Below, one piece after another: positions 1,704 to 64,000 of a DNA stretch of 64,000 bases (its first letter is position 1; every line of letters starts with the position of its first letter). The notes beneath the pieces were generated by a model, which was not told the origin of the DNA, did not search any database, and was given only the letters and a program-made list of their open reading frames with translations. Source of the DNA: Bryum argenteum. Lineage: Eukaryota; Streptophyta; Bryopsida; Bryales; Bryaceae. Location: NCBI GenBank assembly GCA_037043015.1, contig CM073326.1, forward strand, positions 14,888,345-14,952,344, read 5' to 3'. Made by a program: the position numbers and the translations under genes.

Positions 1704-2374
1704 TAGTCCTTTTTGTATGGAATGGGGAATTTATGGACCAACAAATGGCAATTCTAAAGACAATGTAAATGAGCTTGGTTGAAGTAAAGTGGTTGAAGTA
1801 GAGTTTGTAAAGTCACTCAAGCACACAAACAAGTACAAGTACTTATAGCTTTTGGGCACTAAAGACTATGCGGTTGTCATTGCTTTTGTGTTCAATGGTT
1901 ATTGGCTCACTCCAAAATTGTCAAGCTAAGACAAGGTTGACAGAGTCTTATATTAGTAGGTTCCTTTTTAGAGCCACGGTTCCTCTTGAATGTTCACGTT
2001 GACTAAGATCACTCTCATGCTAGCGAATTACACCCGCCTAAGCTAAAAGCATAAGGCACACTCATGTCTGTTCAATCCTCTTTGCAATACTAGTGATTAT
2101 CCAACAGAGTCCAAGATTTCTTTACACTTGACATGAAAACATCCTTGAATGTGCTCAAGAAATAAGAATCAACAAAGATCTTGCAAATGGTTTTTGGGGC
2201 CGCTAAGAGCCCTTTCATTATTCCCAATTGACTGGTACATAGAGGTACTACTCGTACTTTGGCAGCCAACCTTACAAAGGAGAAAATTCCTCATAACCAA
2301 CACTCCCCCACTTACACGAACACTCCTGCATACAATTACAATGTTCACAACCCATTCCTTCATTGGAATTTGAC

Positions 2375-3644
2375 TCAAGACAATACCACCTCTTCCGGGA
2401 CAGCCATAGCTACATGCTCCTCCTCCTCACGAGTAGGCACAGGGAGATTGCCGATCATTACCAGAGAGTGCTGGTGAGCAGAAATGAGCCCATCCACGGC
2501 GGACCGAATGCCATCGCTCATGGACAGCATGTCGAGCATGGAGAAAGGCTCCTCGATCAGCACCCCCACTTCCTCGATGTAGAAAAGCGCCAATGCACTC
2601 AAAAACGTCGCCGGAATGGTGAGCCAATGACACAACTTCCACAATGCAAATGGCAGTGTGATGTGCCACAACGACAACATCCTTGACGTCATCCGCGTAT
2701 ACGCCACCGGAATGGGCGTCTTGAATATCCGCTCACACGCCCCAACATTGTCGTGCAATTGCGTCAAATTCTTGTCCACCCCACTTGTCTCGATGTCGGA
2801 TACCTCACAGTGGCTCACCAGCTCCGAAATCACCTACAAGAAAGGGCATGTATTCATCGATCAGCCTAACCCCAACATCTCGATCTCCCACCAACAAAAA
2901 TCACCAACAAGAAAACATCTTCAATTAATGATCGACCACCCCCACTTCTTCGTATAGATCACAATTGAAACAAGAATACATCTACAGCAATGGAAAATAG
3001 ATTGGTCAAGCACTTACTTGGAGCACATAGTTTGGTTTGTGGCTGAAGCTCAGGAGGGCATCAAGCTCTTGCGGATGGAGAATGGGGAGTAAAGTCTCCT
3101 GCAGGTTGCAATCTTGAGTCAAGTGGTCTTTGAGGCAGTATGGGAAGGCTTTGACATGGCGCAGGATGCTGTCAAGCTTGTGTTGATCGCCAGGGCGACG
3201 AATCCACGTGAGTGTCTGCCGCGCCAAGTCACGAGTTCGGTTCACGTTGGATCCCCACGCTTTGCGAGCTTCGTCAAAGCGGTTGTAGGAGGAGTTTGTG
3301 TGGAAGACGAGGAGCAACGACATCACAGCAGATGTGAGCAGAAAGGGCAACTCGGCGATGTCCAAGATTGGCACCCAATGAGGCATGTCGCTCCATGTGA
3401 GGACTAAATGGTTGAAGACCGTAACGCAAACTGCAATCAAGGTAGACACGGCCACGGGCGGACCGACTGCTACCACCACCCCCGACGTGAATGTCGATCC
3501 GAGATGGCGTGCGTGCCGCCATGAGGACTTGTGTTGTGCCCATTCCTCATGGCCGTAGTTAGAAATCCTCTCATTCTCACAATCCTTGCAGGAGCTTACA
3601 AGATAAGTGATGATGATGAGAGTTTGGTGTATGAAATCGAGCAA
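2375..3644 (-). pseudogene. Bestrophin-like (VCCN/UPF0187 type) chloride channel gene copy A
   Basis: There are two coding exons. Exon 1 ends at 3018 (CTCCAA|GTAAGT) and exon 2 runs 2833-2375 after TCTTGTAG, keeping frame (YVLQ-VISELVSH). Exon 1 carries the plant bestrophin signature SSYNRFDEARKAWGSNVNRT and the following ARQTLTWIRRPGDQHKLD; exon 2 supplies the C-terminal channel half with FYIEEVGVLIEEPFSMLD. Plant members are thylakoid voltage-dependent chloride channels. The body is open for about 360 codons. However, the ATG that copies C and D use is out of frame here by one missing base, and no other in-frame ATG lies before the conserved region. Unless an unseen upstream exon supplies the start, it is broken. 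It is the least damaged copy, with a 3' flank that is also conserved in copies B and D. Confidence 0.75.
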
Positions 3645-6600
3645 ATGACATACTTATGAAGGGCAGAACGGGGGGCGGTTCTTGGTTAACTAAAAGGCTA
3701 TTCACGAGGCGATTGTATTTTTACAATGGTTCAATTTTGTTGAAGAGATTCCTCGACATAGATGAATTTCATCTGAAATGTCAATTTAGCTTCATTCAAG
3801 TACACTAACAAAAGGTGGCAATTCCCATCACCCTCAACACGTGAGCTCAAGTTCTTTTAGGCGTTACTTTTGCTTGCTTTTGATTGTTTGGTCGGACTGT
3901 CGGTTGGCTACGTTGAATGCTAACATACTTCTAAACCAAAAGATGTGGTTGTTTGGAGGTTGGTATGTGGTCATGGTGAAAATGAATGATGATGGTTCGC
4001 TTTTGCTGAGCCACTCAATCTGAAATACGTGTTCCAATTTCTTTTTTATTGGATTTCTGAGGAGCCAGTTGAGGTAAATTAGATGTTATCTATATATGTT
4101 GAGATTCAATCAGATGAAGAGTTCAAACCGTGAAGAGTTCTAACTCCTTTGTTCAATGTCCTCTTCTAGTGAAACTTTAGTGGGGTGTAATCCAAATGGA
4201 GTTTAGCTTCGGTAAGAGAAATTGTAAATTGAGCTTAGATAGTTTGAAATCATAGCATGAAATTTAAGAGGAGGTGATGTTGTTCTATGGATTTGGAAAT
4301 GAGACATGTATTGCCACTGCAAGCCAATTTTATGCATCAAGTTTATCTTCCTTTCATTTTCTTTTTATAAGAGTAAATTTAGCCCATGAATGCTCTTTTG
4401 TATTGTGTGAACATCGTTGTAGCTTAAGAGTTATTAGTAGAATTGAAAGTAAGAGTTAGCTTTTTCAAACTTATAACCTTGTGTTTACTTGTCAAAATAT
4501 GAATTGGTTCAAATTTGGAGCCTTGAGGCCTCATAGTTGGCAAGAGTTGTATGTATTTGTGCTTAACCCCCACATGTCCAAGCCTATTTTTGGCAAAAGA
4601 AAATACTATTCCAAAAAGGATGTCATAAATGGAAATGGAGGTAAATCATTCACATCTTAACCACACCATCTTAGAGTAAACCTATAGTAAACTTGTTACT
4701 CACTTTCATCCTTAAATTAGTCTTATCTAAAATATAGATGTGATTCAAATAATTGGCTTGCATTAGCAAATCATGCCCCAAGTTTCAAAACCCATAAACA
4801 AAAGCCTGTGCACTAGAATGCATGCCATAAACTCATACTATCTTGGATGGTTTACCACTAAAATTAGACTTGAATTGGGGTTGAATTAAACACAATTTGC
4901 CTTACACAGAATACAAAGTACGATCCTAAGACGCTACAATCCTTCAAACTCCTAGCTTATCCTCCAAATTAACGTATCTGGACATCTTGGTGCACTTAAA
5001 GGTTAAGATGAAGCCCAATAACTTTCTAGTTAGAAGATTTGTATTGACATTGGCTTGAAAAGTCATAATATTCAAAAAATTGAAATAATGGATGGTGCTT
5101 GAGATGCTATATCCTCCTCATCCAATGTTGGATTTCAAGCTTTAGTTGTTGAAATAGACTCCGGTCGAAATGGGAGTTGATTTTTGTGGTAGAAAGCTTA
5201 GTTTGATCCAAGTTGAATCTTGCATTTTAGGTAAGGAGGTTTTGCTTTGGACTATTACTCTACTAGACACTTTGAGGTGGTTTACATCATGTGGACCCAA
5301 AAGTTTTTGAATTTTTTCTTTTGTTAAAAGAGTGTATTTGAGATGAAGATGAACACCTGCTTAGTTGGTGATGCAACTATTTTGTTGAATAGTTTCTAAA
5401 GTTTTCACCTCAAAGTGAGAATTTATGATGGTTAAAAAGGTCTCTATGGTCCAAGAGTCTCATTTAAACAAAAATAAGAAAGGTTTTTGTAACAAGCTTT
5501 TTCAGTAAAAGTTGAACAATCGAGTATACTTAAATAAAAAAGGTTCCAAGGTATTGAACCGTCAAATATGGATTTTAGTCTTCCTAATGAAACTAAAAAC
5601 CAAATGGATATACTAATTCGAATATGGTAAACAAAAAAGAGTCAAAATTTAGTACTTCTTTGGTCACAAAACAAGTCTCTCATTTGCCCTCCAAACCTTG
5701 GGCCAAATTAGTGTCTCATTTGGTTTTATAGTTATATTTCACCATCTTCTTATTTTTCACATCCTCAGTGTATTGTAAGCAAGCACTCTACATTTACCTA
5801 TGAGGAAAAACGACTTACAGTGAGATTTATGGCCTCCTATGGGATTTTTATTTACGAATTTTGGGTTGATATTTTTACCTTTGATCTACACCATTTATGA
5901 GATCATCACATTCATAGTTGATGCAAAACTTTTTTTGGGAAGCATTGAGGGGACATTGTCTACTTTGTGCTAAGGAGAATTTAATTTCTAATACCACATA
6001 GATGACTAGGTTGAATACACGGAGCCATGATTTTAGAGACTCATCAGCCTTTTTGAATCTTCATGCAATTTATTAGAAGAAGGTATAAAATCAATAATTT
6101 TGTAAAATCTTGATCACATTGAATCATTTAGGTTATAAAACATAAAGAATAGTCACCTTGTACCTCTATGAGTTTGTGAAATTCAAACAATGTAATTAAT
6201 TTGGAAAATTTGGAACTCTCAAAGTTTGACATATTCTCAGCAAAAATTTTAATACTACAAAAAATATAAAGCTTGATGCTCTAAACTTTGAAAGTTGCTC
6301 ATATAGAATTTGTAACACAGTCAACTCAGGTCACTTAAGAAAAGAGTATAAGTTTGGTCAGGAACGAACTTCTCTAGAAAAATTTTCAGAAAACACTTTT
6401 GAGACAATAAGATTTTTTTTGGTCCCATTTCGGCCTGAAAGCTAAAGTTTGTGTTAAAGAAATCAAGTATTGAGATTTGACTTTGCAATCATTACCACAT
6501 ACACTTTGTATGTGATACCACACTACTTCTCAGATATATCGCAAAAAACTTGCCAATGGACCTTTCATCTAAGGTGTCCAAAGTAGCAAGAGGCCATTTT

Positions 6601-15224: not shown

Positions 15225-15745
15225 TCAATAAGCTACTGAAGGAGGCCGAGGTGGCCCTCGCGGGGGTCCTCGAGGAGGCCCACCTACCATAGGTGGTGGC
15301 CCTCTAGGAGGTCCGCCGGGGTGCATTCCCATGGGAGGAGGACCCCTCGGGGGTCCTGGATATGGAGCCCTCATCGAAGGACCCCTCGGCGGCCCACCCA
15401 TCCCTGGAGGGCCTCTAGGCGGTCCTCCCATCCTTGGAGGGCCTCTGGGCGGTCCTCCCATAGGCCGAAGAGGACCTCTGGGCGGTCCTTCCATAGGCCG
15501 AAGAGGACCTCTTGGACCTAGTGGCCCTCCCATGGGCCGAGGAGGACCTCTTGGACCTGGCGGTCCTCCCATGGGCCTTGGGCTTCTAGGCCCTCCTCTC
15601 CCGCGAGCAACGGGGCCCATTCTAGGGCCTCGTCCTCGCCCTCGACCCCTGCCTTGAGGTCCGTATTGACCTTGTGGATCTACTGATGCTACCACTGTTG
15701 TCGCCACTGCTCCTATAAGAGCATTTGTCAAAATGTCTTCAACTC
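15225..15745 (-). other. Gly/Pro/Arg-rich C-terminal exon 8 of the C2-repeat gene
   Basis: The acceptor CTGTGCAG precedes GAGTTGAAGAC, and the frame continues from the donor GATGCAG|GTGAGA at 16082. The exon starts with VEDILTNALIGAVATTVV, a short hydrophobic segment. An RGRGRGRG stretch and many GGPPRGPPRMGGPP-like units follow, ending PPSVAY-stop. The RG and GPP repeats resemble disordered phase-separating or RNA-binding tails. The complementary strand is also open here because of composition and is not taken as a gene. Confidence 0.8.
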
Positions 15746-18700
15746 CTGCACAGACCACATCCATCAAAATTCAAAAACGGTGCCACATTTTTGGAGAAAT
15801 TGGTACTACTAAAAGTTGCGCAATGTACTATGTGCTGATTGATAGTTAACTTCGATGATCCAAATAATTGTACATCAAGTTATTCCGATGAAACTTTCTA
15901 GAATGTATGTATTTTGTTCAGAGATCCCAGTAATCTATCTCTGCTTTCTAAAAGCCCAGACATCAGCTAAGTATGTCAACAAGAACCAGCATCGCGTAAA
16001 TTATGAAGAGTACTGCAACATTTTTGCTTGAGAGTATGACACAAAGTGAACTCATTTAGAGGGGCAAACAAGAGTTCTCACCTGCATCTTCACCATACCC
16101 ATTGTACTGACCATAGTGATCGTTGACAGTGACCAATTGAGCAGTCTGCCTTGCTGCCTCTCCTGCGACGGCTGCCCCAATTGGCGCCATATTGCGTCCA
16201 ACACTAGTTAATCCCCTCATGAAGCCCTTCATAGCGTTTTGGACACTCTTCACTACTTTCTTGCCTGAAGTCTCTGGATTCCCAGGTGCATTGTACATGG
16301 TGGGCATGGCCTGCTCAGGTCCATTGACGTTGTACCCAAGCGCTGGACGTCTTGGCCTCGAATACTCTGGGTTGCTGAAATCAGAAGCTACAGCTGGATT
16401 TCTGGACCTTGGTTGGCGGGGCAATTGATTGCCATACGAAGCTTTGGCAGCGTAGTTATCTTCACATGTGTAGTTTTCAACATCATAAGATGTATCGGAT
16501 ACGCGAGCGGGAGGTGGCCTTTGTGGCCTTGCAGTACGAGGAGGAGGTCTCCGGACTAGATGAGGATGGACAAGTATGCTTCCGTCCGAAACTGTATCCT
16601 CCAGCCAGTTGGAAACACGATCGTTGTGCGACACCCCTCCACCGTAATTGGACTCGTAGTGTGTTGGAGGACCGCGTAGCCTGTCTGGATCGTATTTCGG
16701 AGGAGAAAGATCAAGATCGTCCAGAGACTTCTGCTTCTGTTTACCGCCATCATCGCCCTCGGAGTCAGATCCTGATGAATTCGAACTTGATTGGGAACTG
16801 GATTTGGAGGAGCCCTTGGACTTCTTAGAGCTTGATTTGGAGAAGCCTTTGGATTTGGGCTTCTGAGGGCCTTGGTGTTCCACTAGCACAACGTCCTCTT
16901 TGATCTGATTTCCGCCATCATCCCTAGGATCATCCCCCGCCTGTGCATCGTAGGTTAGCTCCAGCGCCAAACCAAAACCTCCAACAGAGGATTCCTCCTG
17001 GTCCACATTCACATTCTCTTCGTATGTCACGTGCTCTGTGACTGTCGTGGTCTCTTCATAGGAAGTGGTCACGTTCTCCTGGTATGAGACTTCCACATTT
17101 TGTGTTTCTTCGTAGGAGACTTCGACATCCTGTGTCTCAATGTAAGAGACTTCCACTTCTTGTGTCTCAATGTAAGAAACATCGACGCCGTAATTCTCCT
17201 CATAAGAAACGTTGGTGGTCATATTTTCATCGTACGAAACTTCTGCTTCATAAGTCTCCTTGTACGAAGTCTCCACTTTGGCACTCTCCTCATACGACGT
17301 CTGTACTTCCACATTCTCCTCATAGGATGCATCCGCTTCATAATTCTCCTCGTATGACACCTCTACTTGGAGATTTTCTTCGTGCAACACCTCCGTTTCG
17401 TACTTCTCTTCATATGACGCCTTCACTTCACGATCCTCATCATAGGATACTGCTGCCTTGTATTCCTCTTCATAAGAGGCCTCCAGTGCACGTTCCTCCT
17501 CATATGACTCATCCGCCTTGTAGTTCTCTTCATAAGAAGCCTCCACTTCACATTCCTCCTCATATGATTCCTCCGCCTCATAGTTCTCTTCGTAGGAGGC
17601 CTCCACTTCGACGTTTTCTTCGTAAGAAACCTCTGCCTCATGATTCTCTTCATAAGAGGCCTCGACTTTGCATTCCTCCTCATATGATACCTCCGCTTCG
17701 TAGTTCTCTTCGTAGGAGGCCTCCACTTCGGCGTTTTCTTCGTAAGAAACCTCTGCCTCATGATTCTCTTCATAAGAGGCCTCGACTTTGCATTCCTCCT
17801 CATATGATACCTCCGCTTCGTAGTTCTCTTCGTAGGAGGCCTCCACTTCGACGTTTTCTTCGTAAGAAACCTCTGCCTCATGATTCTCTTCATAAGAGGC
17901 CTCGACTTTGCATTCCTCCTCATATGATACCTCCGCTTCGTAGTTCTCTTCGTAGGAGGCCTCCACTTCGACGTTATCTTCGTAAGTGGCCTCCACTTCG
18001 ACATCCTCTTCATAGGAGGCCTCCACTTCGACATCCTCTTCATAGGAGGCCTCCACTTCGACATCCTCTTCATAGGAGGCCTCCACTTCGACGTTCTCTT
18101 CGTAAGAAACCTCTGCCTCATGGTTCTCTTCATAAGAGGCCTCGACTTTGCATTCCTCCTCATATGATACCTCCGCTTCGTAGTTCTCTTCGTAGGAGGC
18201 CTCCACTTCGACGTTATCTTCGTAAGTGGCCTCCACTTCGACATCCTCTTCATAGGAGGCCTCCACTTCGACATCCTCTTCATAGGAGGCCTCCACTTCG
18301 ACATCCTCTTCATAGGAGGCCTCCACTTCGACGTTCTCTTCGTAAGAAACCTCTGCCTCATGGTTCTCTTCGTACGAAGCCTCGACTTCACGTTCCTCCT
18401 CATATGATACCTCCACTGTTTCGTAGTTCTCTTCGTAAGAAACCTCCACTTCGTAGTTCTCTTCGTAAGAAACCTCCACTTCGTAGTTCTCTTCGTAGGA
18501 GGCCTCGACTTCGACGTTCTCTTCGTAGGACACTTCTGCTTCGTAATTCTCTTTGTAAGAGGCTTGCACCTCAACATTCTGCTCATATGAAGCCTCCACC
18601 TCATACGAAGTTTCCACTTCTACACTTTGTTGGGTCTCGTACGATGCCTCAATCTCAACGCTGTGCTCGACTTCATACGAAGCCTCATACGAGGATTCCA

Positions 18701-21700
18701 CTTCCGTCGTTTGCTGGTACGATTGATCCACCTCAACACTTCGCTCAATCTCATACGAAGTTTCTACTTCAACACTTTCAGTGTACGAAGCCTCCACCTC
18801 GCGCGATGTTTGCACTTCCACCAACTGTTGGTACGAAGTCTCCACCTGAATACTCTGCTCAATCTCGACGCTTTGCTGCACAGAAACATTTTGCTCCACA
18901 GAGACAGTTCTCTCAACAGTGACAATTTGCTGCACACTAGAATCACCTCCATTGTCGCCTGAATCACCATTATTAGCTTGAATGCCAAGAATGATTGAGA
19001 ATCCCCCAGCAGGTTGAGAATCGTCATTCCCCGCGTCCCTATCATCTCCATCATCTTGCGCAATTGGTTGTGGAGCACCATGTCGAGGACCTTGAGCATT
19101 ATCTTCCTCAGAACTGCTCTCTCCTTCATCTGGTACAAATGCAGGCTGTGGTGCGGCTCGAGACACAAATGCGGGTTGTGGAGTGTGTCGGGACTCAGAT
19201 GCAAGTTCTAAAGGACCTCGAAGGGCATCAATCTCTTCCTCGCTGCTGCTGCTTTCTCCTTTATCAGGCACAAACTCAGGTTGGGGTAGAGTTCGGGGTG
19301 GAGTGCGCTGCGGTGTGGAGTCCTGACTAACGCCACGGCTTGCTAAAAGTGGTCTTGGAGGCCCACCAATGATCGATGACACGTTAGACTTCTTAGACTT
19401 CTTTGAGTCCTGTGACTCCGCGTCGGAATCAGAATCGGAATTGTCTGAACTTTGCAGTTTTGGAGGTGGAAAAGCTGCTGGAGGTTTACCTTCGCACTGA
19501 GATACTCCAGGCTGCAACACATCAAACTTCACACCTTAATAAAATGAAAGACAATAGTAATGGCACCCGCGTCTCCACCATTGTCTAAGCGACAACCGCA
19601 ATGGAGGTAAATACACCACACAATGACCACAATGCAATAGTTCAGCATTCTTGTGAGAACCTGTAAAGGCTCGCCTTGTTCATTTCTTCCAAATCGAGCA
19701 GCTCTTTTTGCTCCCAAAGTCCGTGTCTGCACAAGTGGAACTTCTGTTGGTTGCTGCAGTTGCTTTTGCAGTCGAACATGTAATTGCCCTAGTTGATTTG
19801 GGGTCACAGGCCTGTAATGAGCGTTCCCAGGTGGATACGTCAAGCCAACGTGCACTGGTCGAGGACCAGGACGTGGTCCAGGTTGAGGTTGAGGACCCGG
19901 CCTATAAGCACAGCCTCCACTAGACATCTCGTGGACATTCTGTACACGTTGCCCTGGTGGACGGATCATCTGTGCAGTCGGAATGTTGCATGGTGGACCA
20001 TGAAAAGCAAGTCCAGGTCTAGGTCCAGGTCCAGGTCTTGGTCCAGCAATGTGCACAAGCTGAATCCCTTGAGATCTTTCACCATTCTGATGCACGGGGC
20101 GCTGATGACCGAGGTGAGGACCGTAGCTTCCGTAGTTTGGCCCTGGTGCAAGCGCATACTGGGTATGCTCATCGAGCTCCTGAATTTGTCCACGACTTTG
20201 ATTTTCCATCTCTGGTTTCGACAATATTGGTGGCCTCGAGTCCCGTGAGCCTTCTGATTCAGAGTCCGAATCGCCCTTGACCGTCACCTCCCTCGAGTTT
20301 CGGTGCTCATGATGTCGTGATGCTCGTGTCACGCTGGGGTGAGAAACGCTTGATCGCCTGGAGCCTTCATCGGATTCAGTCTCTGTTCTCCCCGATTGCC
20401 CAGGCGAAGCGGTTCTTGATGACTGTGACATTCTTCTGCTTACATACAAGGGCTTGTCATCATCCAGCGCTGGAGCCACATTCGCTGCATCAGGGGCGGC
20501 AGCTGACTGCTGAGGGAAACCCTTTTGTCCATGAGCATACTCCAAGGCATCTAAACTCGGAATTGTGGGCATCTCCGGCAACATGGACAAGGTAGAAGGT
20601 GAAGGCACGTCAGCAAGTTGGGGAACATCTGCAAATGAGAAGTCTCCTAGATGAACCCCTCGCGTAGCCACTACAGGCTCCACTTGATTGGGAGTCTTTA
20701 GACACGACGATGCCGATGGTGCGACAACGGGAACATTGTGGGCAGGTCCAGGACCCACAATAGCACCTGGAACATTGTTAACAAGTTCAGGATGCCGCGA
20801 TGGAGGGGACCTAGCAGCAACAGGAGCATTGTAGACAGGTCCAGGTTGCCATGTTGGAGGAGGCCCAGCAGCAATGGGAGCATTGTAGATAGGTCCGGGC
20901 TGCCGTGATGGAGAGGGCATGGCAGTACCGGGACCATTGTTCGGACGACGAACGTATTCAGGAGCTGGAGCCGGATGGCCACCACGCCTTGGATGTCCGT
21001 GCCTTGAACCTCCATAGCTTGAACCTCCATGGCCTGAACCTCCGTGGCTAGAACCTCCATGGCTTGAACCATCTCGTGAGGGCGGACCTCCTCGTCGAGG
21101 AGGCCAAACTGGTGCATCGTATTCCTCGACATGAAGGACTGGACGCCTTTGGTCGTCTTGGAAAGGAGGTGGTGCCAAAGGCAGCTGTTGTTGTTGCGCA
21201 TGCGCTGGTGTGGGTGCCGACTGAGCGTGTCGAAGGGGATGTGTTGGAGGAGGATGAGGATCAAGGGGCAACGAATTCCTTCGACCCGGTCCATCAAAAT
21301 CATAAGCTGCACAAAACCAGGAGAGATCAACCAAACCGATAATGTGATTTCGCTATTGTTTCAATCCCTACACAATTTGATAACATGAAATACTTAGCTT
21401 CGTGCAGTTTACAGACAAAGAAGTTGGCCTATGTGCCAACGTGGGCTTGGGTGGAGATACACGTACATGGATGACGAGAACTTTGAGGAGATGGAGCATC
21501 ATCAGCGGTTCCTCCAAATCCTGACCTCCGGCTTGACCCACCATTAGAGGAACTGTCTTCATCATTATCTGCAACCGGGTCCAAGCTCGGAACAGGGCTT
21601 AAGACTGGTCGCCGCGGTTGAAACAAAGGTCCGGGCGTTGGATCAAGATGAGCCGGCCTCTGGCAAGCACACCACATAGCACTAATTTAGACTATCATCA

Positions 21701-23518
21701 TGTAGACCATGTCTATAGACCTACCACTTCAGAACATGTCTGCACGTAATGTTCTCAGAAAGCCTATGCAGATTTCTATACCCACGAGTATTGAACACAA
21801 GGAGCTCAACGTTGACTGAAGCACCGACAATCATGGCATTGTTCACATTCACTAGAACGAGATTAGTGCTCCAAAATTTAAGTGACTAAGCTCATACTCT
21901 ACTACTTGAGAGCACATTAGAACGAACCCTCTTTGCATGGAAGTTTAGGCCAAGTCTGATGTCGCCGTAGTGCTTCCCACCCCGAGTTACTGGATATGCT
22001 GTAACACCAACGCTGTGCTTTTCCCGAAACACTTCAACAAAAGCAAGACTGAAAATCAACAATTGCAAGTGAATTAGCAATCGAATCCCACAATACAATC
22101 TCACAATACAATCTAATTGCAATTATAATCTCACATGTTGGCTAGTATTACTAGTACTAATCATTGCCCTAGTGATGAGCATTAAACATGTACAAAGTGA
22201 CGCAATCTAAACTGCAAGCTCTCCAAAAATTTCAAGATGCATTTAGCTCAGGTTTGGGCATATCATTACTTGCATTCTCCAACTTGATCATCGTCCCGTA
22301 AAGAATTCTTTGCCATGATCTTGATCATCAAGTGATTCGTACTCCTGTCAATTTTGTATTCAAATGTCTGGTTCCAGTATGGCCTACTTCCTCCATCTGC
22401 GTCTCCAAAATCTCAAAGATCAAAACGAGCAAGCTTCATTGCACTTGCGCCTAAATGCTAGACATGCTAGACGTAAGCAGAAGCAAAAGCGAGAATTAAT
22501 GGCTCCATTTGTGGGAAGTGAAGTGAATTACCTATGGCAACTTTGGTTTTGAAAACCTGCGTCCCAACCGTAAGAATGCAATACGGGCTGCACTTGCCTA
22601 CACAGCACCAAGACCGAATGAATCACAGCACATGGATACCACCTCACCTTGGTGCGGCACATTAAATGAAACGACATAGATTGATTAGGGCGACAGTGGC
22701 AAATACTCCACAGCCAAAAGCCAATGAAGGACCCATAGATTGATTAGGACGACAATGGCAAATACTCCACAGCCAAAAACCGATAAAGGACCCAGAGATT
22801 GATTAGGACAACAATGGCAAATACTCCACAGCCAAAAACCAATAAAGGATGGACTGGAACACTCCTGGTAAGTAGTACTCCATTTCCGCCCTCCATAAAC
22901 CCACTCTAGAAGTCTGGAACCCTAATTTGCAAACCCTTCTCTCTCATGGCTTTGTAGACTAACATTAATTTCCATCGGATCCGCATATAATTGCCAGTAC
23001 AGTGGCCTGAAAATAATAGAATTCCGGGTTCTCTCGAGTGGTACACCCTGTCTCCACGATCTGAACCTCTTACCAAACTTCCAAGCAGTAATTTAACATT
23101 CTCAAACTGGCCTAGAATGATTGGGTGCTGCAGCCCTTGCAAGCAAATACTACTACCTTGTACTCTCTTATCAATAGGGACTACCGGAATTTGAACCTCA
23201 CAGCTGGAGACTAGCTACCGAAGATACTGATTATCACCCCAGAAACCGCTTCATCTTGAAAGGTTGAAGTTTATGCAGGGTCATTTCAAAGGCAGAATGG
23301 TGAGAAATGCCGGTTTCCAACTTACGTTACAATCTAAGTCTGTACACAACCTGCTTCAGAATTCAGATGGTGGAAATTCATTGGCGGTAAGAGCTCGTTC
23401 GATAGTTCTAACCTAAATTGCAAAACAAAAAACAGGGATGAGACTACGTACCTAGTAAGGCGGTGTTCTTAATGTTGAGGGCACCCTCAACATACACATG
23501 CAAGTCCCCGTGAGGCAT
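15225..23518 (-). CDS. Giant C2-domain protein with ~50 tandem SYEE-type decapeptide repeats (2058 aa, 8 exons)
   Basis: Exons read on the minus strand: 23518-23452, 22597-22532, 22402-22270, 22048-21928, 21659-21467, 21306-19661, 19511-16082 and 15745-15225. Every junction is GT-AG and the phases join without a stop; the total is 6177 nt. The start is the ATG at 23518 (MPHGDLHVYVEGALNIKN), typical for the first strand of a plant C2 domain. Residues 1-129 form the C2 domain. Residues 130-1050 are Pro/Gly/Ser/His-rich and look disordered. Residues ~1050-1576 are decapeptide repeats. Then come a Ser/Lys/Asp-rich stretch, a short helical stretch (KSVQNAMKGFMRGLTS) and an RG- and GPPRGPP-rich end. 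I see no signal peptide or membrane span. Small plant C2 proteins such as SRC2 share the C2-plus-low-complexity plan but are far shorter. The function is unknown; membrane-associated scaffolding is only an inference. Confidence 0.85.
16990..18590 (-). repeat. Decapeptide repeat array inside exon 7 (about 50 units, 30-bp period)
   Basis: Units run SYEENVEVEA, SYEENYEAEV, SYEEECKVEA, SYEENHEAEV and close variants, with Tyr at position 2 of nearly every unit and a run of acidic residues. I count about 50 units between residues ~1050 and ~1576; less regular VE/SY motifs extend the array upstream to about 18930. A higher-order 120-bp (40-residue) block recurs at 17641, 17761 and 17881 with few changes. 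A 240-bp block at 17941 is repeated almost exactly at 18181. The near identity at DNA level shows recent expansion or gene conversion. The alternating hydrophobic and acidic residues suggest beta-strand or solenoid propensity, but that is inference. Confidence 0.95.
21928..23518 (-). other. C2 domain encoded by exons 1-4 (residues 1-129)
   Basis: Four small exons, three of them too short or oddly phased to show as long open frames, join into one C2 fold. In order: MPHGDLHVYVEGALNIKN, then GKCSPYCILTVGTQVFKTKV, then RPYWNQTFEYKID, then LMIKIMAKNSLRDDDQVGEC, then a closing strand with GGKHYGDIRLGLNF. This follows the plant C2 pattern of GKSDPY, W-N-x-x-F and D-D-x-V-G-E. The usual Asp of the first calcium loop (GKSDPY) is Ser here (GKCSPY), and the D-x-D of the third loop reads KN. 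Only the late Asp cluster (RDDD) remains, so classical calcium binding looks weakened. C2 domains normally bind membranes or proteins; which applies here cannot be told from sequence. Confidence 0.85.
22676..22850. repeat. 59-bp minisatellite, three copies, in intron 1 of the C2-repeat gene
   Basis: The motif TTGATTAGG...GGCAAATACTCCACAGCC recurs at 22681, 22740 and 22799, a 59-bp period, with a few substitutions. It lies between exon 2 and exon 1 of the C2 gene. I see no coding or regulatory role. Confidence 0.85.
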
Positions 23519-37100: not shown

Positions 37101-40100
37101 CTGAACCTTTTTATAATTTACTATATAGTGTTCTTTTGGTACAAGCGTGTTTTTGAGATAAATGGGAACAACATTATAGAGTTATGATAGTTGATAATCT
37201 CTATGTTGGCAAGTGGTTTATATATAGAATTTCCACTTTAAAGTAAAAATGATAGAATTTTTTAACCTTCTATACATCCCATTTGGCTATACGACCCTAG
37301 TGTTGAAAAACAATATTTTGGATGAATTTGCACTTGCCGAAAGCCTCCTATCTTCCCTGTGCAATACAGGTCTAGTTTGTATAGTAAGTATTGAAAACCC
37401 ATGCACTAATGTATGAATTTACAATATGCATCTTAGTGAAGGCAGATTTGGGTTTTGAGTTTTAAATATAAAGCATGTTTTACCATTGCAAGCCAATCAT
37501 GTGGAATCAAGAATAGCTTTTTAGGATTTATTTTTACATAAGTATGATATCAAGAAATAGCCAAAACCTTTTTAGTTCGAAGCTTCTTGATCGAGGTAAT
37601 TGTGAAATTAGATTCACATTAATGCTCCTACAATGAAAAGGTGAAAACATGTATGAATTTAGAAAAGCTTTATCTCCTTCCCCAGTTCCTATATTTATGA
37701 TATCAACCTTTTTTTTTGGGCCCAGATTCCAATTAGAGTCTAGTTTCAGTGGTAGAAACCTTCACTTAGTCCACGATGTTTGGAAGATAAGGCATGGCTT
37801 CGAGTGCAAAGGGTCCCGTTTTTGAAGTCCTATTGTAACCTTTCTCGTACTTTTGACCATTGCAAAGCTATGCTTTGAGCCAAAAATAAAATAAAATTTG
37901 ATAGATTATTTTTTAGACAAGCGTGTTATTGAGATAAAGGTGAACAACAACCTCATTGAATTATTTTCAGTCTAGCAACTTTATTGGTGGAATTTCCCCT
38001 CTAATGTGTAAACAATGAAACTTTGTGGTTTGTTTTGACTTTTGAGGAATCCTATGTTATGAAAGGCTTTTCTGACACACATTTTGCCCTAGGTGATTGA
38101 CAATAATTCTACAATAGGATGGTGTGGATAAGATGTGAATGATTTACCTCCATTTTCATTTATGACAGCCTTTTTGAAATATTGCTTTTCTTTTGCCAAA
38201 CATAGGCTTGGACGTGTGTGGGTTAAGCACAAGTACATACAACTCTTGCCAACTATGACGCCTCAAGGCTCCAATTTGACCCAATTCATATTTTGACAAG
38301 TCTACACAAGATTAGAAGTTTGAAAAAGCTAACTCTTACTTTCATTCTACTATTAACTCTTAAGCTACAACGATGTTCACACAATACAAAAATTGAAGGA
38401 CATTCGTGGGCTGAATTAACTGTTATAAAAAGAAAATGATGAGAAGATAAACTTGATGCATAAAATTGGCTTGCAGTGGCAATACATGTCTCATGTTTCA
38501 AAACCATAGAACAACATCACCTACTCCTAAATTTCATGCTCTGATTTCAAACTATCTAACCTCAATTTACAATTTCTTTTACTGAAGCTAAACTCCATTC
38601 GGGTTACAACCCAATAAGCTTCACTAGAAGAAGACATTGAACAAAGAAGTTAAAACTCTTCATAGTTTCCACTCTTCATCTAATTGAATCTCAACATGTA
38701 TGGATAACATCTAATTTACCTCAACTGGCTCTTCAGGAAATCCAATAAAAAAAATTGGAACACGTATTTAAGATTGAGTGGCTGAGCAAAAGCTAACCAT
38801 CATCATTCACTTTCACCATGACCACAGATTGGCCTCCAAACAGCCACATCTTTTGGTTTAGAAATAGGTTAGCATTCAACATAGCCAACCGACAGTCCGA
38901 CAAACAATCAAAAGCAAGCAAAAGGAACATCTAAAAGAAGTTGAGCTCACGTGTTGAGGGTGATGGGAATAACCACCTTTAGTTAGTGTACTTGAATGAA
39001 GCTAATTGACATTTTAGATGTAATTCGTCTATGTTGAGGAATCTCCTCAAGAAAATTGAACCATTGTAAGATACAATCGCCTCGCGAATGGCCTTTTAGT
39101 TAGCGGAGAATCGCCCCCCCCTTCTGCCCTTCATAAGTATGCCATTTGCCCGATTTTATACACCAAACTCTCATCCTCATCACTCATCTCGTAAGCTCTT
39201 GCGCGGATTGTGAGAATGAGAATCCTCAAACTACAGCCATGAGGATTGGGCACAACTCAAGTCCTCATGGCGGCACGCACGCCATCTTCGAACGACATTC
39301 AAGTCGGGGGTGGTGGTAGAAGTCGGTCCGCCCGTGGCGGTGTCTACGTTTATTGCAGTTTGCGTTACACTCTTCAATCACTTAGTCCTCACATAGAGCC
39401 GCATGCCTCACTGGGTGCCAATCTTGGACATCGCTGAGTTGCCCTTTGTGCTTACATCTGCGGTGATGTCGTTGCTCCTTGTCTTCCGCACAAACTCCTC
39501 CTACAACCGCTTTGACGAAGCTCGCAAAGCCTCGGGATCCAACGTGAACCGAACTCATGACTTGGCGCGGCAGACACTCACATGGATTCGTCGCCCTAGT
39601 GATCAACACAAGCTTGACAACATCCTCCGCCATGTCAAAGCCTTCCCCTACTGCCTCAAGGACCACTTGACTCGAGATTGCAATCTCCAGGAGACTTTGC
39701 TCCCCATTCTCCATGCGCAGGAGCTTCAAGATGCCCTCCTGAGCTTCAGTCACAAACCAAACTATGTGCTCCAAGTAAGTGCTCGACCAACCTATCTTCC
39801 GTTGCTGTAGACGAATTCATGTTTGAAATCTATACAAAGAAGTGGGTGTGATTGATCATTTACTGCTGAAGATGTTTTCTTGTTGGTGATTTCTTTTTGT
39901 GGGAGACTGGGAGATGGAGATGGTGAGCTCGGCTGATCGATGAATACCCGCTCTTCCTTGCAGATAATTTTGGAGCTGGTGAGTCACTGTGAGGTATCCG
40001 ACATTGAGACAAGTGGGGTGGACAAGAATTTGACGCAGCTGCACGACAATGTTGGGGCGTGTGAGCGGATATTCAAGACGCCATTCCGGTGGCGTACACG

Positions 40101-41400
40101 CGGATGACGTCTAGGATGTTGTCGTTGTGGCACATGACGCTGCCATTTGCATTGTGGAAGTTGTGTCATTGGCTCACCATTCCATCGACGTTTCTAAGCG
40201 CGTTGGCGCTTTTCTACATTGAGGAAGTGGGGGTGCTAATCGAGGAGCCTTTCTCCATGCTGGACCTGCTATCTGTGAGCGATGGCATTCGGTCGGCCGT
40301 AGATGGGCTCATTTCTGCTCACTAGCACTCCCTGGTAATGATAGGCAATCTCCATGTGCCTACTTGTGAGCAGGAGGAGCATGTGGCCATGGCTATCCCG
40401 GAAGAGGTGGTATTGTCCTAAGTCAAATTCCAATTCTAGGGAATGAATGGACGTTGTGTCGTAATTGTATCAGGGAGTGTTCGTGTAAGTGCAGCTGATA
40501 TGAAAGAGTGTTGTTTCTGGAGAAATTTCTCATTCGTTATATTGGCTGCCAAATCTCTGTAATAGTAGTGCCTCTATGTATAAGGCAATTCAGTCTAAAT
40601 TGGGAATAATCAAAGGGCTCTTAGCAGCCCCAAGAACCATTTGCAAGATCTTTGTTGGTTCTTATTTCTTGAGCACATTCAAGGATGTTTTCATGACAAG
40701 TATAAAGAAATCTTGGACTTTGTTGGATGATGACTAGTATTGCAGAGAGGATTGAGTAGATATGAGTGTGCCTTATGTTCTTAGCTTAGGGAGGTGTAAT
40801 TGGCTAGCGTGAGAGTAATCTTAGTCGACCTGAATATTCAAGAACAACCCTCTAAGAAGAGTCACTGTGATATTAGACTCAAGCCTGTCTTAGCATTACA
40901 ATTGTGGTGGAGTCAGCCAATAACCATAGGGCAGACAAGCAAGCGACAACAACATAGTCTTTAGTGTCCAAAAGCAATATGTACTTGTACTTGTTTGTGT
41001 ACTTGGGTGACTTTACAAACTCCACTCCAACCACTTTACTTCACTCAGGCTCATTCACATTGTCCTCGAAATCGTCATTTACCAGTCCATAACTTTCCTA
41101 TTCAATACAAAAAGAAATAGTAGTTGTCTCCACGTAAACCAGACTTGAATCTCAGTGAAACTATGTAACGTGAAGATTGAGTTCCTGCCGTCATGGCTTC
41201 TTTGATCCAATCACATAGTCTTTCGAAAATTGTGCGACAAATGCTTTTGGAAGTAGGGGTGGAGGGTCGGAACGATTTTATGCTATTGCAATTTGAGTGG
41301 TTTTGAATTGATACTTTCTCTTATATATGGGGATCTATGACCACACTTTACCATGAATGACCCTTCATAGAAATGTGGAATATGATACATATGGACAACA
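34200..41400 (-). repeat. Large duplicated block, right copy (inverted)
   Basis: Reverse-orientation partner of 1200-7300. It contains bestrophin copy B and an extra ~1.3 kb (36800-38090) of inverted-repeat-element-like sequence. A related stretch also lies upstream of copy D (about 58860-60030), which suggests that blocks B and D are more closely related to each other than to A. Apart from copy B and short coding-like shadows I find no gene here. Confidence 0.7.
39190..40421 (+). pseudogene. Bestrophin-like chloride channel gene copy B
   Basis: This is the same two-exon structure in the opposite orientation: exon 1 ends at 39774 (CTCCAA|GTAAGT), exon 2 is 39964-40421 after CTTGCAG. Exon 1 keeps SSYNRFDEARKASGSNVNRT. 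Lesions seen: the Trp codon of the conserved LTW motif is TAG (about 39397), one C is missing in the KTPIP codons (about 40082) and shifts the frame, and the Gln of SAHQHS is TAG (about 40324). The start region is also scrambled relative to copies C and D. It lies in the inverted duplicate of the block holding copy A. Confidence 0.85.
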
Positions 41401-41762
41401 AATATGATAAATGTTTATACCAAAACCCATCACATATTTATAATACACAACACAAAGAACATACTAGTGCAAAGGGGGAAGTTGAACAGATTGATTGCGG
41501 CTTCTGCACGCAACTACCAATAACATCATTTGTGATATTTCTATGCAGAAGTCTTGATCGGCAACTAATGATTTCTGCTCACAGATTGATTGTTAGTGAC
41601 CGGTGCTCTTCATAAGTAACATTAGTAATTGCCGAGATGTGAACATTCTGAATAAAGAGGGTTATAAAATGGGGTTGAGAAGAAGTGTTTTCCATTGTCC
41701 TGATTTCTATGGTGTGCAGGGTTTGTGACAACAATTGGATGATGTCTTCTTCTTCTGTGCAA

Positions 41763-41903
41763 GATTTATGTAGAGCTCTGATGACAACAATCGAGAGGCT
41801 CCTGGGGGTGCTCGATATCAAGAGTCTGGTCCTTCCCGTACCAATCACCAGCGAGGCCATTTGGATCAACAAGTTTGGGTTCAAAGCTTTGGAGGATCAG
41901 CAG
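41763..41903 (+). pseudogene. IDM1-like PHD/GNAT acetyltransferase exon, copy 1
   Basis: A 141-bp exon encodes 47 residues beginning DLCRALMTTIERLLGVLDIK and containing SLVLPVPI and WINKFGFKALEDQQ, followed by the donor CAG|GTATTTG. This matches the conserved stretch of plant PHD-finger acetyltransferases of the IDM1 type (Q-G-M-C-R-R-L...L-V-I-P-A...W-T-x-x-F-G-F). The acceptor reads GTGCAAG, against GTGCAG in the other copy. I find no flanking exons that complete the GNAT fold or a PHD finger, so it is a fragment. It lies about 1.3 kb past bestrophin copy B, on the same strand. Confidence 0.65.
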
Positions 41904-42499
41904 GTATTTGACTTTCATCGATCCATATCCATTATAGTTATCACTCCCAATTAAGAAGCTGGTACACAATATAATAAGAGTTTGAAGAAGCATATAGTAA
42001 GTTCATTTAGTAAGTTCATTACTAACAAGTCTATAGTATGTTGTTGAACCACCTAATCAATAATGGTTAAATCATAAACAAGTGTACTCTATGTTCCACG
42101 AATGGTCGTAACTAGTTAGCATTTGGTTCTCCATTTCGCTCATTTGGTTATGTATTTTGCTCAACTACACACCTCAAAACTCTTTCCTCAAAGAATAAAC
42201 ACATGTTTAACTTGCTCTAATTTTAATTAGTTAACTCTACCCAAAATGGTTTGATAATCAATCCCCATTCTTGCTTATAAATATATACAAAAAATGTATC
42301 ATTGCCACTTGAAGGTCCATAACTAGGTACACCAATAACTTTAGGTTCTACATTATGATGAAACAAGTAATTATGTTTAGTATCTCTATATATAAAAGAA
42401 CACGATTACCTGCTAGCGATCCTTTGCAGGTTGCCCGACCTGATGCAACCGGTTTTCTTTGTTTGCCCTTGGTGATCCTTCCCGGTAGTAGGGTGGTTT

Positions 42500-48747: not shown

Positions 48748-49231
48748 CTCTTGCAGGTTCATTGCAATCTTGAGTCAAGTGGTCCTTGAGGCAATAGGGG
48801 TAGGCTTTGACATGGCGCAGGATGCTCTCAAGCTTGTGTTGATCGCTAGTGCGACGAATCCACGCGAGTGTCTGCCGCGCCAAGTCACGAGTTCTGTTCA
48901 CGTTCGATCTCCAGGCTTTGCGAGCTTCGTCAAAGCGGTTTTAGAAGGAGTGTGTGCGGAAGACGAGGAGCAACGACATCACCGCACATGTGAGCATAAA
49001 GGGCAATTGGGCGATGTCCAAGATTGGCACCCACTGAGGCATGCCGCTCCATGTGAGGACTAAATGGTTGAAGACTGTAACGCAAATTGCAATCAACGTA
49101 GACACGGCCACGGGCAGACCGACTGCTACCACCATCCCCGACGTGAATGTCGATCCGAGATGGCGTGCGTGCCGCCATGAGGACTTGTGTTGTGCCCATT
49201 CCTCATGGTCGTAGTTAGAAAATTTTCTCAT
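48748..49231 (-). pseudogene. Bestrophin-like chloride channel gene copy C, exon 1 fragment
   Basis: An in-frame ATG (MRKFSNYDHEEWAQHKSSW) starts at 49231 and the frame stays open to FRTHSF, where TAA replaces the Tyr codon of the SSYNRF signature. Homology goes on to the ARQTL and KAFPYCLKDHL region and stops abruptly at about 48748, in AT-rich DNA. Exon 2 is absent. So the copy is truncated and carries a stop in the most conserved motif. Upstream it shares the leader with copy D up to about 49310, where it is interrupted by another repeat block. Confidence 0.85.
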
Positions 49232-49309
49232 TCTCACAACCCTTGCACTAGCTTAGAAGATGGGTGAGTGCGGTGTGGGATTGTAATCAAAATACATAGA
49301 GGAGAAGGG

Positions 49310-55479: not shown

Positions 55480-58400
55480 ATGGTTCAAATTCCATATTTC
55501 TATGAAGGGTCATTCAAGGTAAAATGGGGTCAAAGATCCCCATACATAAATGTACTAAGTACCAACTAAAAATCATTCAAAGTGCAATAGCATAAAATCT
55601 TTCCCACCCTCCACCCCTACTTCCAAAAGCATTTGTCGCACAATTTCTGAAAGACTATGTCATTGGATCAAAAAAGCCATGATGGCAAGAAGTCACTCTT
55701 CATATTACATATTTTCAAAAAGCTTCAAGTTTGGTATACATGGAGACAACTACTATTTCTTTTCGCTGCACTCAATAGGAAATCTATGGACCATTTGATT
55801 TTGACGACAATGTGAATGAGCCTGGTTGAAGTAAAGTGGTTGGAGTAGAGTTTGTAAAGTCACCCAAGCACACAAACAAGTACAAGTACAAATTGCTTCT
55901 GGGCACTAAAAACAATGCAGTTGTCGCTGCTTTTGTGCCCAATGATTATTGGCTTACTCCACCACAATTGTGATGCTAAGAGAGGCTTGAGTCTGATATC
56001 ATAGTGACTCTTAGAGGGTTGTTCTTAAATATTTAGGTTGACCAAGATAACTCTCACGCTAGCCAATTACACCTCCCTAAGCTAAGAACATTAGGCACAC
56101 TCATGTCTACTCAATCCTCTCTGCATTACTAGTGATCATCCACCAAAGTCCAAGATTTCTTTACACTTGACATGAAAACATCCTTGAATGTGCTGAACAA
56201 ATAAGAATCAGCAAAAATCTTGCAAATGGTTTCTGGGGCCGCTAAGAGCCCTTTGATTATTCCCAATTTAGACTGAATTGCCTAATACATAGAGGCACTA
56301 CTTGTACAGAGAGTTGGAAGCCAACATAACAAATGAGAAATTTCTCCGGAAACAACACACCTGCATATCAGCTGCACTTACACAAACGCTCCCTGATCTA
56401 ATTACAACACAACCTCCATTCTTTCCCTGGAATTGGAATTTGACTTACGACAATACCACCTCTTCCGGGACAGCCATGGCCACATGTTCCTCCTGCTCAC
56501 AAGTAGGCACAGGGAGATTGTTGATCATTACCAAGGAGTGCTGGTGAGCTGAAATGAGCCCATCTACGGCCGACCGAATGCCGTCGCTCATGGACAGCAG
56601 ATCCAACATGGAGAAAGGCTCCTCGATCAGCACCCCTACTTCCTCGATGTAGAAAAGCGCCAACGCGCTAAAAAACGTCGGTGGAATGGTGAGCCAATGA
56701 CACAACTTCCACAATGCAAATGGCAGTGTGATGTGCCACAACGACAACACCCTCGACGTCATCCGCGTGTACGCCACCGGAATGGGCGTCTTGAATATCC
56801 GCTCACACGCCCCAACATTGTCGTGCAGCTGTGTCAAATTTTTGTCGACCCCACTTGTCTCGATGTCGGATACCTCACGGTGGCTCACCAGCTCCGAAAT
56901 CACCTGCAAATGCAAAGGCAGGTATTCATCGATCACCTTGACTTACCATCTCGATCGATCTCCCACCAACAGAAATCACCAACAGGAAAACATATTCACC
57001 AATAAATGATCGATCAGTGCCCCCACTTCTTTGTATAGATTACAATTGAAACAGGAGAATTCATCTACAGCAATGGAAGATAGATTGGTCGAGCACGTAC
57101 TTGAAGCACATAGTTTGGTTTGTGACTGAAGCTCAGGAGGGCATCAAGCTCCTGCGGATGGAGAATGGGGAGCAAAGTCTCTTGCGCAGTTGCAATCTCG
57201 AGTCAAGTGGTCCTTGAGGCAGGAGGGGAAGGCTTTGACATGGCGGAGGATGCTGTCAAGCTTGTGTTGATCGCCAGGGCGACGAATCCATGTAAGTGTC
57301 TGCCGCGCCAAGTCACGAGTTCGGTTCACGTTGGATCCCCAAGCTTTGCGAGCTTCATCAAAGCGATTGTAGGAGGAGTTTGTGCGAAAAACAAGGAGCA
57401 ATGACATCACCGCAGATGTAAGGACAAAGGGCAACTGGGCAATGTCTAAGACTGGCACCGAGTGAGGGAGGTAGCTCCGTGTGACTAAATGGTTGAAGAT
57501 TGTAACGCAAATTGCAATCAACGTGCAGAATGTCACGGGTGGACCGACTGCTACCACCACCCCCGACGTGAATGTCGAACCGAGATGGCGTGCGTGCCGC
57601 CATGAGGACTTGTGCTTTGCCCAATCCTCATGGCCGTAGTTAGAGAACCCCTTCATGATCCTCACAACCCTCAGCACTAGCTTAGAAGAATGATAGCAAG
57701 ATGATGAATGATGAGTGAGTGCGGTGTGTGATTGAAATCAAAATACATAGAGGAGAAGGGGGGTGGTTCCTGGGCTATCTAGAAGCTATTCTGGGTGCAC
57801 ACCAAGTGCTCAAGTTCTTCTCTCAGAATCTTCTCTGAGTTCTTCCCTGAGGAAATTTGAGGACTTGTTCCCATAGTACAATTGTTCACTTTTCTTCCGG
57901 AGATTCCTATTCAAAGTAGACAGATTGCATTTCACATGGTAATCAACCCAATTCAAGTACACTAAGGACTAGCGGAAATTCGCATCACTCTCGACATGTG
58001 AAGTTTGCTTCATTTGAACGTTGCGTTGCTTTTGCTTCTTTGTCGGTTAGGTGTCTCAAATGCACGCAATCATTTTTCCAAAACAAAATATGTGGTTGCT
58101 TGGAGGCTTGGCATGAGGTACTAATGGTGAAGTTTGATTGTAATGGGTTGCAATTGTTGAGCCGGTCAGTCACATTAGTTGAGTTGCAAATTGTAATGTT
58201 GGATTTTCTATGGAGCAAGTTGAGATCAGATGAGTGTTTTCCATACATGTTGAGATCCAATAGGATGAAGAGTTCAAACTTTGAGGAGTTCCAACTTCTT
58301 TGTTCAATGTCCCCTTTTGGTGAAAATTAGTGGGTTGGAACTCAAAATAATGGAGGATAGCTTCAGTGATAGAAATTGTAAATTGAGCTAAGATATTTTG

Positions 58401-63900: not shown

Positions 63901-64000
63901 TTCCTCGTCGTCTTCGTCCTGGTCGTCCTCCTCTGCGGACTGGTCTCCACCCGCCTCGGCTATCTCCTCGGCCCTTCTCTGTTGGGCTCTTGTCCTCCGG
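60937..64000. mobile_element. GC-rich element entering from the right edge, LTR-like terminus
   Basis: The flank GATCCCTACTTCC, shared with the paralogue at 52585-52600, ends abruptly at 60936; the new sequence starts TGTCGTGAGTTACC and stays GC-rich to the window edge. A TG start fits an LTR, but the other end, any target duplication and any polymerase domain lie outside or are not recognisable, so the family is open. G-runs at 61491-61498 and 62231-62240 may affect sequence accuracy. Confidence 0.45.
62537..64000 (-). CDS. Long open frame in the GC-rich element, product unknown, cut by the window edge
   Basis: The frame is open from the window edge (64000) to a stop at 62537, 487 codons, with no ATG near the edge, so the true start is outside. 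The product is Pro/Glu/Arg-rich: an Arg/Gly-rich stretch, then a basic KRKAKKRKR cluster that could act in nuclear import, then acidic and Pro-rich parts. Two likely helical or coiled segments follow (PELAEEMQRETTRLRREKVE; EVEALRRVVQEQEAALRKLQ). I see no reverse transcriptase, protease, integrase or zinc knuckle. A structural or accessory protein of the surrounding element is the simplest guess; the family is not recognised. Confidence 0.45.
   Translation of the reverse strand, partial: PEDKSPTEKGRGDSRGGWRPVRRGGRPGRRRRGRGRRGSPTSTGKTIPRGEEEGHDGFWEETFSRPTSSPVEQGAPDEEVAAAEANAEVLPPGERPPGGRVPNLKRKAKKRKRSASPVVQRRAIEEERAPSPDPAPIQDPAPNPVEEPIPESQPKVKRRLLISEEEDTPERTTPPRLELPKQRSDPAPATPASVAAPESSHRGVVTPGTGNTTPVLPRPYYRIPSEGILHPIRLAMEEVDRENEQLFTSLARLERVFQTPNVERYPELAEEMQRETTRLRREKVELVLKARPKVQASVGVQCGSDPSDIEVNPEVEALRRVVQEQEAALRKLQNIDRTVLHSILKVLQPDAEAQTKAAFYDARIGISESPQSLELLRRHTTGINQCLKEFRTLTGRLLGALPHVEMKETALPEEETLAPSEVPTEVPVPMEIEEKSLPVSEEHELPVDGGIPENREGDRVATPPRRDDIPSEPGLPGPSEVEALVEG

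Follow-up and report, generated by a model that had tools for sequence, protein, structure and literature searches.

A 64,000-nucleotide stretch of the genome of the moss Bryum argenteum (GCA_037043015.1, contig CM073326.1, positions 14,888,345 to 14,952,344; hereafter the window) holds on its minus strand, between window positions 23518 and 15225, a gene whose spliced translation joins a C2 domain to about 1,900 residues of low-complexity sequence, a very long tail that a preliminary description of the region had already pointed out. Within this tail lies an array of tyrosine-bearing decapeptides that, judging from codon comparisons between its units, is a selected protein feature, with an old motif kept at the edges and a centre that was re-duplicated recently. 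In plan the protein is likened to Arabidopsis CaLB1 (AT4G34150), which combines a type II C2 domain with a Pro-rich disordered C-terminal tail (PMC11187125), and our tentative preference is to regard it as a membrane-attached condensate scaffold, an oversized version of that arrangement.

The decapeptide array

The array proper (residues 1058-1578; 17013..18575, minus strand, as for all parts of the gene) follows the consensus [VY]-E-V-E-[AV]-S-Y-E-E-N; residue numbers are those of a 2061-residue gene model, from which 5 is deducted beyond residue 44 for the alternative model of 2056 residues. Earlier it had been described as about fifty SYEE-type decapeptides placing a tyrosine every ten residues in a strongly acidic background, and all three statements hold. 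Specifically, the spliced translation contains 48 matches to [ST]Y[EDK][EDK] and 41 to SYEE, successive [ST]Y sites are spaced by exactly 10 residues in 48 of 60 intervals (61 sites in the part searched), and residues 951-1590 carry a net charge of -214 over 640 residues (33% Glu, 11.7% Tyr). The same 640 residues account for 60 of the protein's 89 sites of the CK2 consensus S/T-x-x-D/E, and we take the conserved S-Y-E-E core of the array to be a CK2-type site (S-x-x-E). Tyr and Arg, residues known in general as stickers of condensates, number 112 and 117 in the whole protein; residues 1061-1590 contain 66 of the Tyr but 3 of the Arg.

Selection was gauged on 54 units whose Tyr lies exactly ten residues from a neighbouring one (the other 7 sites were dropped), 36 of which differ at the DNA level; the proportions of nonsynonymous (pN) and synonymous (pS) differences were computed between these 36. 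In the coding frame pS is 0.82 and pN 0.27, a ratio of 0.33, against 1.22, 1.36, 1.21, 1.61 and 0.49 in the five other frames, the last of these being an antisense frame in which 23 of the different units are interrupted by stops. Unit pairs are not independent, and the contrast between frames is used in place of a p-value; pS is too high for distance correction. Because the coding frame shows purifying selection and the open antisense frame does not, we conclude from these comparisons that selection acts on the array as protein, with synonymous sites near saturation and the peptide conserved. As a check that avoids the circularity of units anchored on Tyr, residues 1119-1558 were read in fixed ten-residue steps, and among the 27 nucleotide-unique units (44 in all) S6 is present in 25, Y7 in 26 and E9 in 26, position 1 being variable. 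The antisense open reading frame at 17042-18922 (plus strand, 626 codons) was rejected as a gene on the pN/pS of 1.6 in the open antisense frame. Also rejected was homology of the array to the designed toroid 4yxz (E 8e-11; also 4yxy, E 0.28), a compositional match with low alignment accuracies of 0.55 and 0.43.

Codon usage separates the edges of the array from its centre. Identity of codons for the same residue is 0.45 at one edge (11 units) and 0.46 at the other (16 units), where 0.41 is expected, and 0.69 in the centre (27 units), where 0.43 is expected; when the N-terminal edge is compared with the units from residue 1439 on, residues are identical at 0.54 and codons at 0.46 versus 0.40. 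Six comparisons between blocks tell the same story at the nucleotide level, the four central ones differing by 0-2 bases and the two that involve the copy at 1379 by 21 and 22 of 120. Since codons at the edges are near random and the central blocks near-identical, the codon evidence indicates that the motif is old and kept at the edges and that the centre has been re-duplicated recently in blocks of 40 and 80 residues.

A degenerate zone of V-x-V-E-x-S hexapeptide-like sequence (residues 938-1057; 18576..18935), with an 18-nucleotide period at 18872-18936, leads into the array. Beyond this zone on one side and after the array on the other stand two segments, GGFSIILGI..GDSGDNGGD (18942..19007) and GGFGLALEL..GDDPRDDGG (16911..16982), that share a GGF...GD...DGG pattern and align weakly (21.9 bits, E 0.036, in a search of three short subjects with filters off). 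They are possibly a duplicated cap bracketing the array, stemming from an ancient duplication.

Gene structure, C2 domain and flanking regions

Re-splicing of the minus strand gives eight in-phase exons, the number in the preliminary description, at 23518-23452, 22597-22532, 22411-22270 and 22048-21928 (exons 1-4) and at 21659-21467, 21306-19661, 19511-16082 and 15745-15225 (exons 5-8), with GT-AG borders at seven of seven introns (854, 120, 221, 268, 160, 149 and 336 nucleotides) and one terminal stop. The first spliced model takes exon 3 from 22411 and comprises 6186 nucleotides and 2061 residues, while an alternative acceptor at 22396 (CAG) yields 2056 residues, again in frame and with one terminal stop; the 2058 residues first reported thus become 2056-2061 codons, according to the acceptor of exon 3. 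We prefer 22396 because it gives the C2 domain a higher Pfam score (61.1 versus 54.5 bits for PF00168, cut-off 22) and a match to the structure of Arabidopsis At1g63220 (1wfj) that is free of a five-residue insertion. With 22411 that alignment (E 2.3e-14) crosses all three exon junctions and carries the insertion right after the second, whereas with 22396 (E 1.3e-16) it is gap-free at every junction. The joining of exons beyond the C2 domain is predicted solely from splice sites, phase and the open frame. A 59-bp minisatellite in three copies lies within intron 1 (22675-22849).

Exons 1-4 (residues 1-132; 21928..23518) together form one C2 domain, described earlier as of plant type, whose best match among solved structures is At1g63220 over query residues 2-129. 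At3g55470 (5yq3) matches query residues 4-100 at E 2.2e-5, or 2.3e-6 with the preferred exon 3, and no chain named CaLB1 or SRC2 is among the PDB matches listed. Canonical Ca2+-binding C2 domains, such as those of protein kinase C and synaptotagmin, have five loop aspartates. Read from the alignment to 1wfj, and identically under either exon 3 acceptor, A20, S26, A78 and N80 replace four of the five expected ligand aspartates in the moss domain, D85/D86 being kept, so the set of five is incomplete. Ca2+ binding is therefore predicted to be weak or absent. The suggestion that the C2 domain holds the protein at membranes keeps its domain and becomes less safe with these replacements.

Downstream of the C2 domain, exons 5-6 encode a Pro/Gly/Ser/Arg-rich stretch (residues 133-745; 19661..21659) with 102 Pro in 613 residues, 51 Arg and 14 Tyr, placed on the disordered side in a charge-hydropathy comparison; an N-terminal C2 domain followed by a Pro-rich disordered tail is the arrangement that marks CaLB1/SRC2-type proteins. 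An acidic and Ser-rich stretch (residues 746-937), which includes the GGFSIILGI segment, follows and leads to the repeats. When eight segments were compared by charge-hydropathy, the C2 domain and residues 1828-1912 came out on the ordered side and the other six on the disordered one. No Pfam family matches exons 6-8 above its cut-off, and exon 6 matches none at E up to 1; SR-25 and MRI matches in the low-complexity part were rejected as lying far below their cut-offs.

Between the GGFGLALEL segment and the C-terminal region lies a second low-complexity stretch, rich in Ser, Lys and Pro, followed by a predicted basic amphipathic helix, KKVVKSVQNAMKGFMRGL (residues 1829-1846; 16209..16262). Its helical moment is 0.75, a value reached once when the 41-residue segment containing it was shuffled 2000 times, an optimistic figure given that the segment was picked after inspection, and a low-confidence AlphaFold model of exon 7 draws a helix at residues 1830-1865. 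The helix is a candidate for an additional membrane anchor near the C terminus. Hydropathy over 19 residues peaks (mean 1.59) in DILTNALIGAVATTVVASV (residues 1892-1910; 15681..15737), the protein's most hydrophobic segment. As this peak in a hydropathy scan, made with no signal-peptide predictor, stands there and not at the N terminus, secretion is not indicated. The protein closes with a Pro-Arg-Gly/Met tail and stop codon (15225..15674), the final 149 residues containing 25 Arg and 3 Tyr.

A putative condensate scaffold and competing explanations

A membrane-attached condensate scaffold is the reading we lean towards because the moss protein has the same plan as CaLB1, whose tail is needed for condensates (PMC11187125). 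The C2 domain, probably without a need for Ca2+, would bind one end of the chain to a membrane and the basic amphipathic helix of the C-terminal region would bind the other, leaving some 1,700 intervening residues as a multivalent scaffold. Evenly spaced tyrosines of the array would pair with arginines of the flanking Pro/Arg-rich stretches, the protein would gather with its partners into condensates, either at membrane surfaces or between membranes, and CK2 phosphorylation of the S-Y-E-E core could tune the charge. What the sequence itself shows is the set of open, in-phase exons, the selection on the repeat peptide, the lost aspartate positions, the beta-amphipathic pattern of the array and the amphipathicity of the helix; splicing, membrane binding, condensation, Tyr-Arg pairing and CK2 control are the parts of this account that we infer.

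Several points weigh against the scaffold. Because four of five ligand aspartates are gone, the Ca2+-dependent membrane binding of CaLB1 probably does not carry over to the moss protein. Extended synaptotagmin-2 comes second in the PDB search when the preferred exon 3 is used, about level with At3g55470, so the link to the CaLB1 group resides mainly in At1g63220; this weakens the family link a little and leaves our odds for the scaffold unchanged. Neither a YPxL motif (YP, one to three residues, L) nor a P[TS]AP motif occurs in the moss protein. With its net charge of -214, the array may behave as a soluble charged brush that does not condense. Finally, the gene is known here from DNA alone, and the splicing of exons 1-5 to exons 6-8 is a prediction.

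The array could instead form beta-rich fibres, an unlikely alternative in our estimate, each decapeptide contributing one amphipathic strand, at most seven residues long, and a short turn, with V, V, A/V and Y on one face of the strand and E, E and S on the other, and with stacking set off once the glutamates are neutralized, whether by low pH or by cations such as Ca2+. The V-E-V-E-A/V-S-Y alternation is strongly beta-amphipathic: the hydrophobic moment of the array at the beta angle is 0.430, compared with 0.238 +/- 0.012 in 200 shuffles, and its helical moment lies below that of shuffles (0.182 versus 0.248). Structure prediction of consecutive repeats, a check suggested in the preliminary description, gave a divided answer. 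A 100-residue piece of the array run with 12 aligned blocks returned a mean predicted local distance difference test (pLDDT) score of 44.6 and zero secondary structure. By contrast, exon 7 run alone as a single sequence of 1143 residues (mean pLDDT 37.3) yielded 34 strands of 4-7 residues at intervals of about ten residues across residues 1049-1385; however, the blocks concerned have low pLDDT values of 33-54, residues 1386-1578 hold a single strand of three or more residues, and AlphaFold has a reputation for drawing too much beta structure when repeats are near-perfect. Strong negative charge would also oppose stacking at neutral pH. AlphaFold thus predicts no confident fibre and does not settle the structure of the array, and the fibrous or phase-separating material first envisaged is kept possible by the beta-amphipathic pattern and gains no confident predicted fibre.

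Another explanation to which we give a low probability is that the array serves as an extended brush of charged polymer, a spacer tethering two membrane-binding ends, in which the unit is kept solely for its charge and length and nothing condenses. The net charge of -214 over 640 residues, the lack of a confidently predicted fold and the candidate anchors at both ends are all as this would have it. A plain spacer, however, leaves unexplained the near-constancy of Tyr (26 of 27) and Ser (25 of 27) among the nucleotide-unique units, together with the alternating hydrophobic pattern.

That the main product is instead a 208-residue C2 protein, made by retention of intron 5 or early ending, with the repeats confined to a minor isoform or transcribed separately, strikes us as quite improbable, though it is a genuine alternative. 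Read-through of intron 5, 6 or 7 would stop the protein at 208, 788 or 1896 residues, and retention of intron 5 (21307-21466) would give a C2 protein of ordinary size, similar to CaLB1-type proteins (CaLB1 itself has about 250 residues); moreover, the joining of exon 5 to exon 6 is deduced from the DNA sequence. Against this, splice sites and phases fit, exon 5 already opens the same Pro/Ser/Arg-rich tail, the first Met beyond the C2 domain is residue 326, deep inside exon 6, and the array appears to be selected as protein. The weakest explanation, a neutrally drifting minisatellite that has stayed open by chance, is very improbable: its centre of near-identical 40- and 80-residue duplicates is typical of recent slippage or unequal exchange, but the in-frame pN/pS of 0.33 at a pS of 0.82 and the edges, which keep the peptide at near-random codon choice, speak against it.

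Relatives, neighbouring genes and known C2 proteins

Searches for relatives covered viral and prokaryotic collections, so that absence there says little: 80 residues of the array gave zero tblastn matches in phages, the array pattern had 18 matches in genome contigs with 0 confirmed, and the C2 domain had 3 pattern matches in viral contigs, again with 0 confirmed. When the whole protein was compared with the rest of the window (tblastn, low-complexity filter off) the best E was 0.002, the strongest matches being Pro/Gly-rich and located at 62-64 kb; scans of the window with Rfam (gathering threshold) and for tRNAs detected nothing. A 487-codon open frame on the minus strand at 62540-64000 runs off the end of the window and matches no Pfam family at E up to 0.01; it is perhaps a mobile-element gene. 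GC content at 62001-64000 is 61%, compared with 31-52% in the other 2-kb stretches. A gene of Bestrophin_2 type is also present in the window as four scattered copies or pieces, at 2378-3653 (minus), 39137-40418 (plus), 48761-49252 (minus) and 56448-57647 (minus), identified by Pfam matches of five open reading frames in three copies and by tblastn for the fourth. These are 82-97% identical in protein, except for a short N-terminal piece (53%), and sit in larger duplicated blocks (for example 1709-4673 versus 41114-38115, inverted, 87.5%; 39225-41969 versus 57645-54910, inverted, 88%).

Soybean SRC2-like proteins combine a C2 domain with a short Pro/Gly/Tyr-rich tail, a plan that the moss protein resembles by description only. 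To the comparison with SRC2-like proteins drawn in the preliminary description can be added CaLB1, in which a disordered tail on a plant C2 domain has a tested condensation function: according to the available text of PMC11187125, the tail is required for condensates in vitro and for ALIX binding, and CaLB1 is located with ALIX on salt-induced autophagosomes. The likeness to CaLB1, again by description, lies in the N-terminal C2 domain and the Pro-rich disordered tail, and the closest Arabidopsis homologues of CaLB1 given there, At1g63220 and At3g55470, both rank near the top of the PDB matches of the moss C2 domain. The differences are equally clear. CaLB1 binds Ca2+, with affinity lowered by the single change D32A, its membrane binding is Ca2+-dependent and its C2 domain binds phosphatidylinositol 3-phosphate (PMC11187125), whereas the moss domain is without most of the corresponding aspartates; D32 presumably corresponds to S26, to judge by its spacing to Y34. 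The moss tail runs to about 1,900 residues, whereas CaLB1, with fragments named up to residue 220, has a far shorter one, and a decapeptide array is not mentioned for CaLB1 in the available text of that paper. We thus liken the moss protein to CaLB1 in plan, a likeness that stops short of established orthology. At1g63220 (1wfj) and AtPP16-1/At3g55470 (5yq3), of the ERG/PP16 family (PMC10931576), share an alignable C2 domain with it. Unlike the moss protein, which at 2056 or 2061 residues is no short protein made up mostly of one C2 domain, the 1wfj and 5yq3 chains are short single C2 proteins (136 and 162 residues), and in the alignments they retain the loop aspartates.

The preliminary description knew of no protein with this array, and for plants this agrees with our survey: our searches of open-licence papers yielded no plant protein with a C2 domain and a decapeptide array, although an annotated orthologue may well exist. 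Outside plants there is a precedent. Plasmodium PfCERLI2, a 579-residue protein peripherally attached to an organelle membrane on its cytosolic side, has a C2 domain and C-terminal decapeptide tandem repeats of variable number, whose function is stated as not clear (PMC8828742, available text). The layout is thus already known once, in a distant lineage and with a different repeat. Likeness extends to layout only: the repeat consensus differs, the PHIS motif of PfCERLI2 is absent from the moss protein, and the ratio of nonsynonymous to synonymous substitution rates reported for the PfCERLI2 repeats (Ka/Ks 1.43, between species) and the 0.33 found here between units are different measures. We take the resemblance as probable convergence.

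Combining these strands, a Ca2+-independent C2 domain of the green lineage and a selected, still-expanding Tyr array might together make a phosphorylation-tunable material that assembles through beta structure or condenses, is held to membranes at both ends and converges on PfCERLI2. This is a doubtful proposition as a whole; if true, it would define a new class of intracellular repeat material. CaLB1 has shown that a plant C2 protein can carry a condensing tail (PMC11187125, 2024), and the moss gene would be an extreme natural version of it, offering an ordered, countable array of stickers in which copy number, Tyr spacing and phosphorylation could each be varied in one protein. The shared layout with PfCERLI2 further means that the role of a decapeptide array beside a C2 domain could be tested in two lineages that are far apart.

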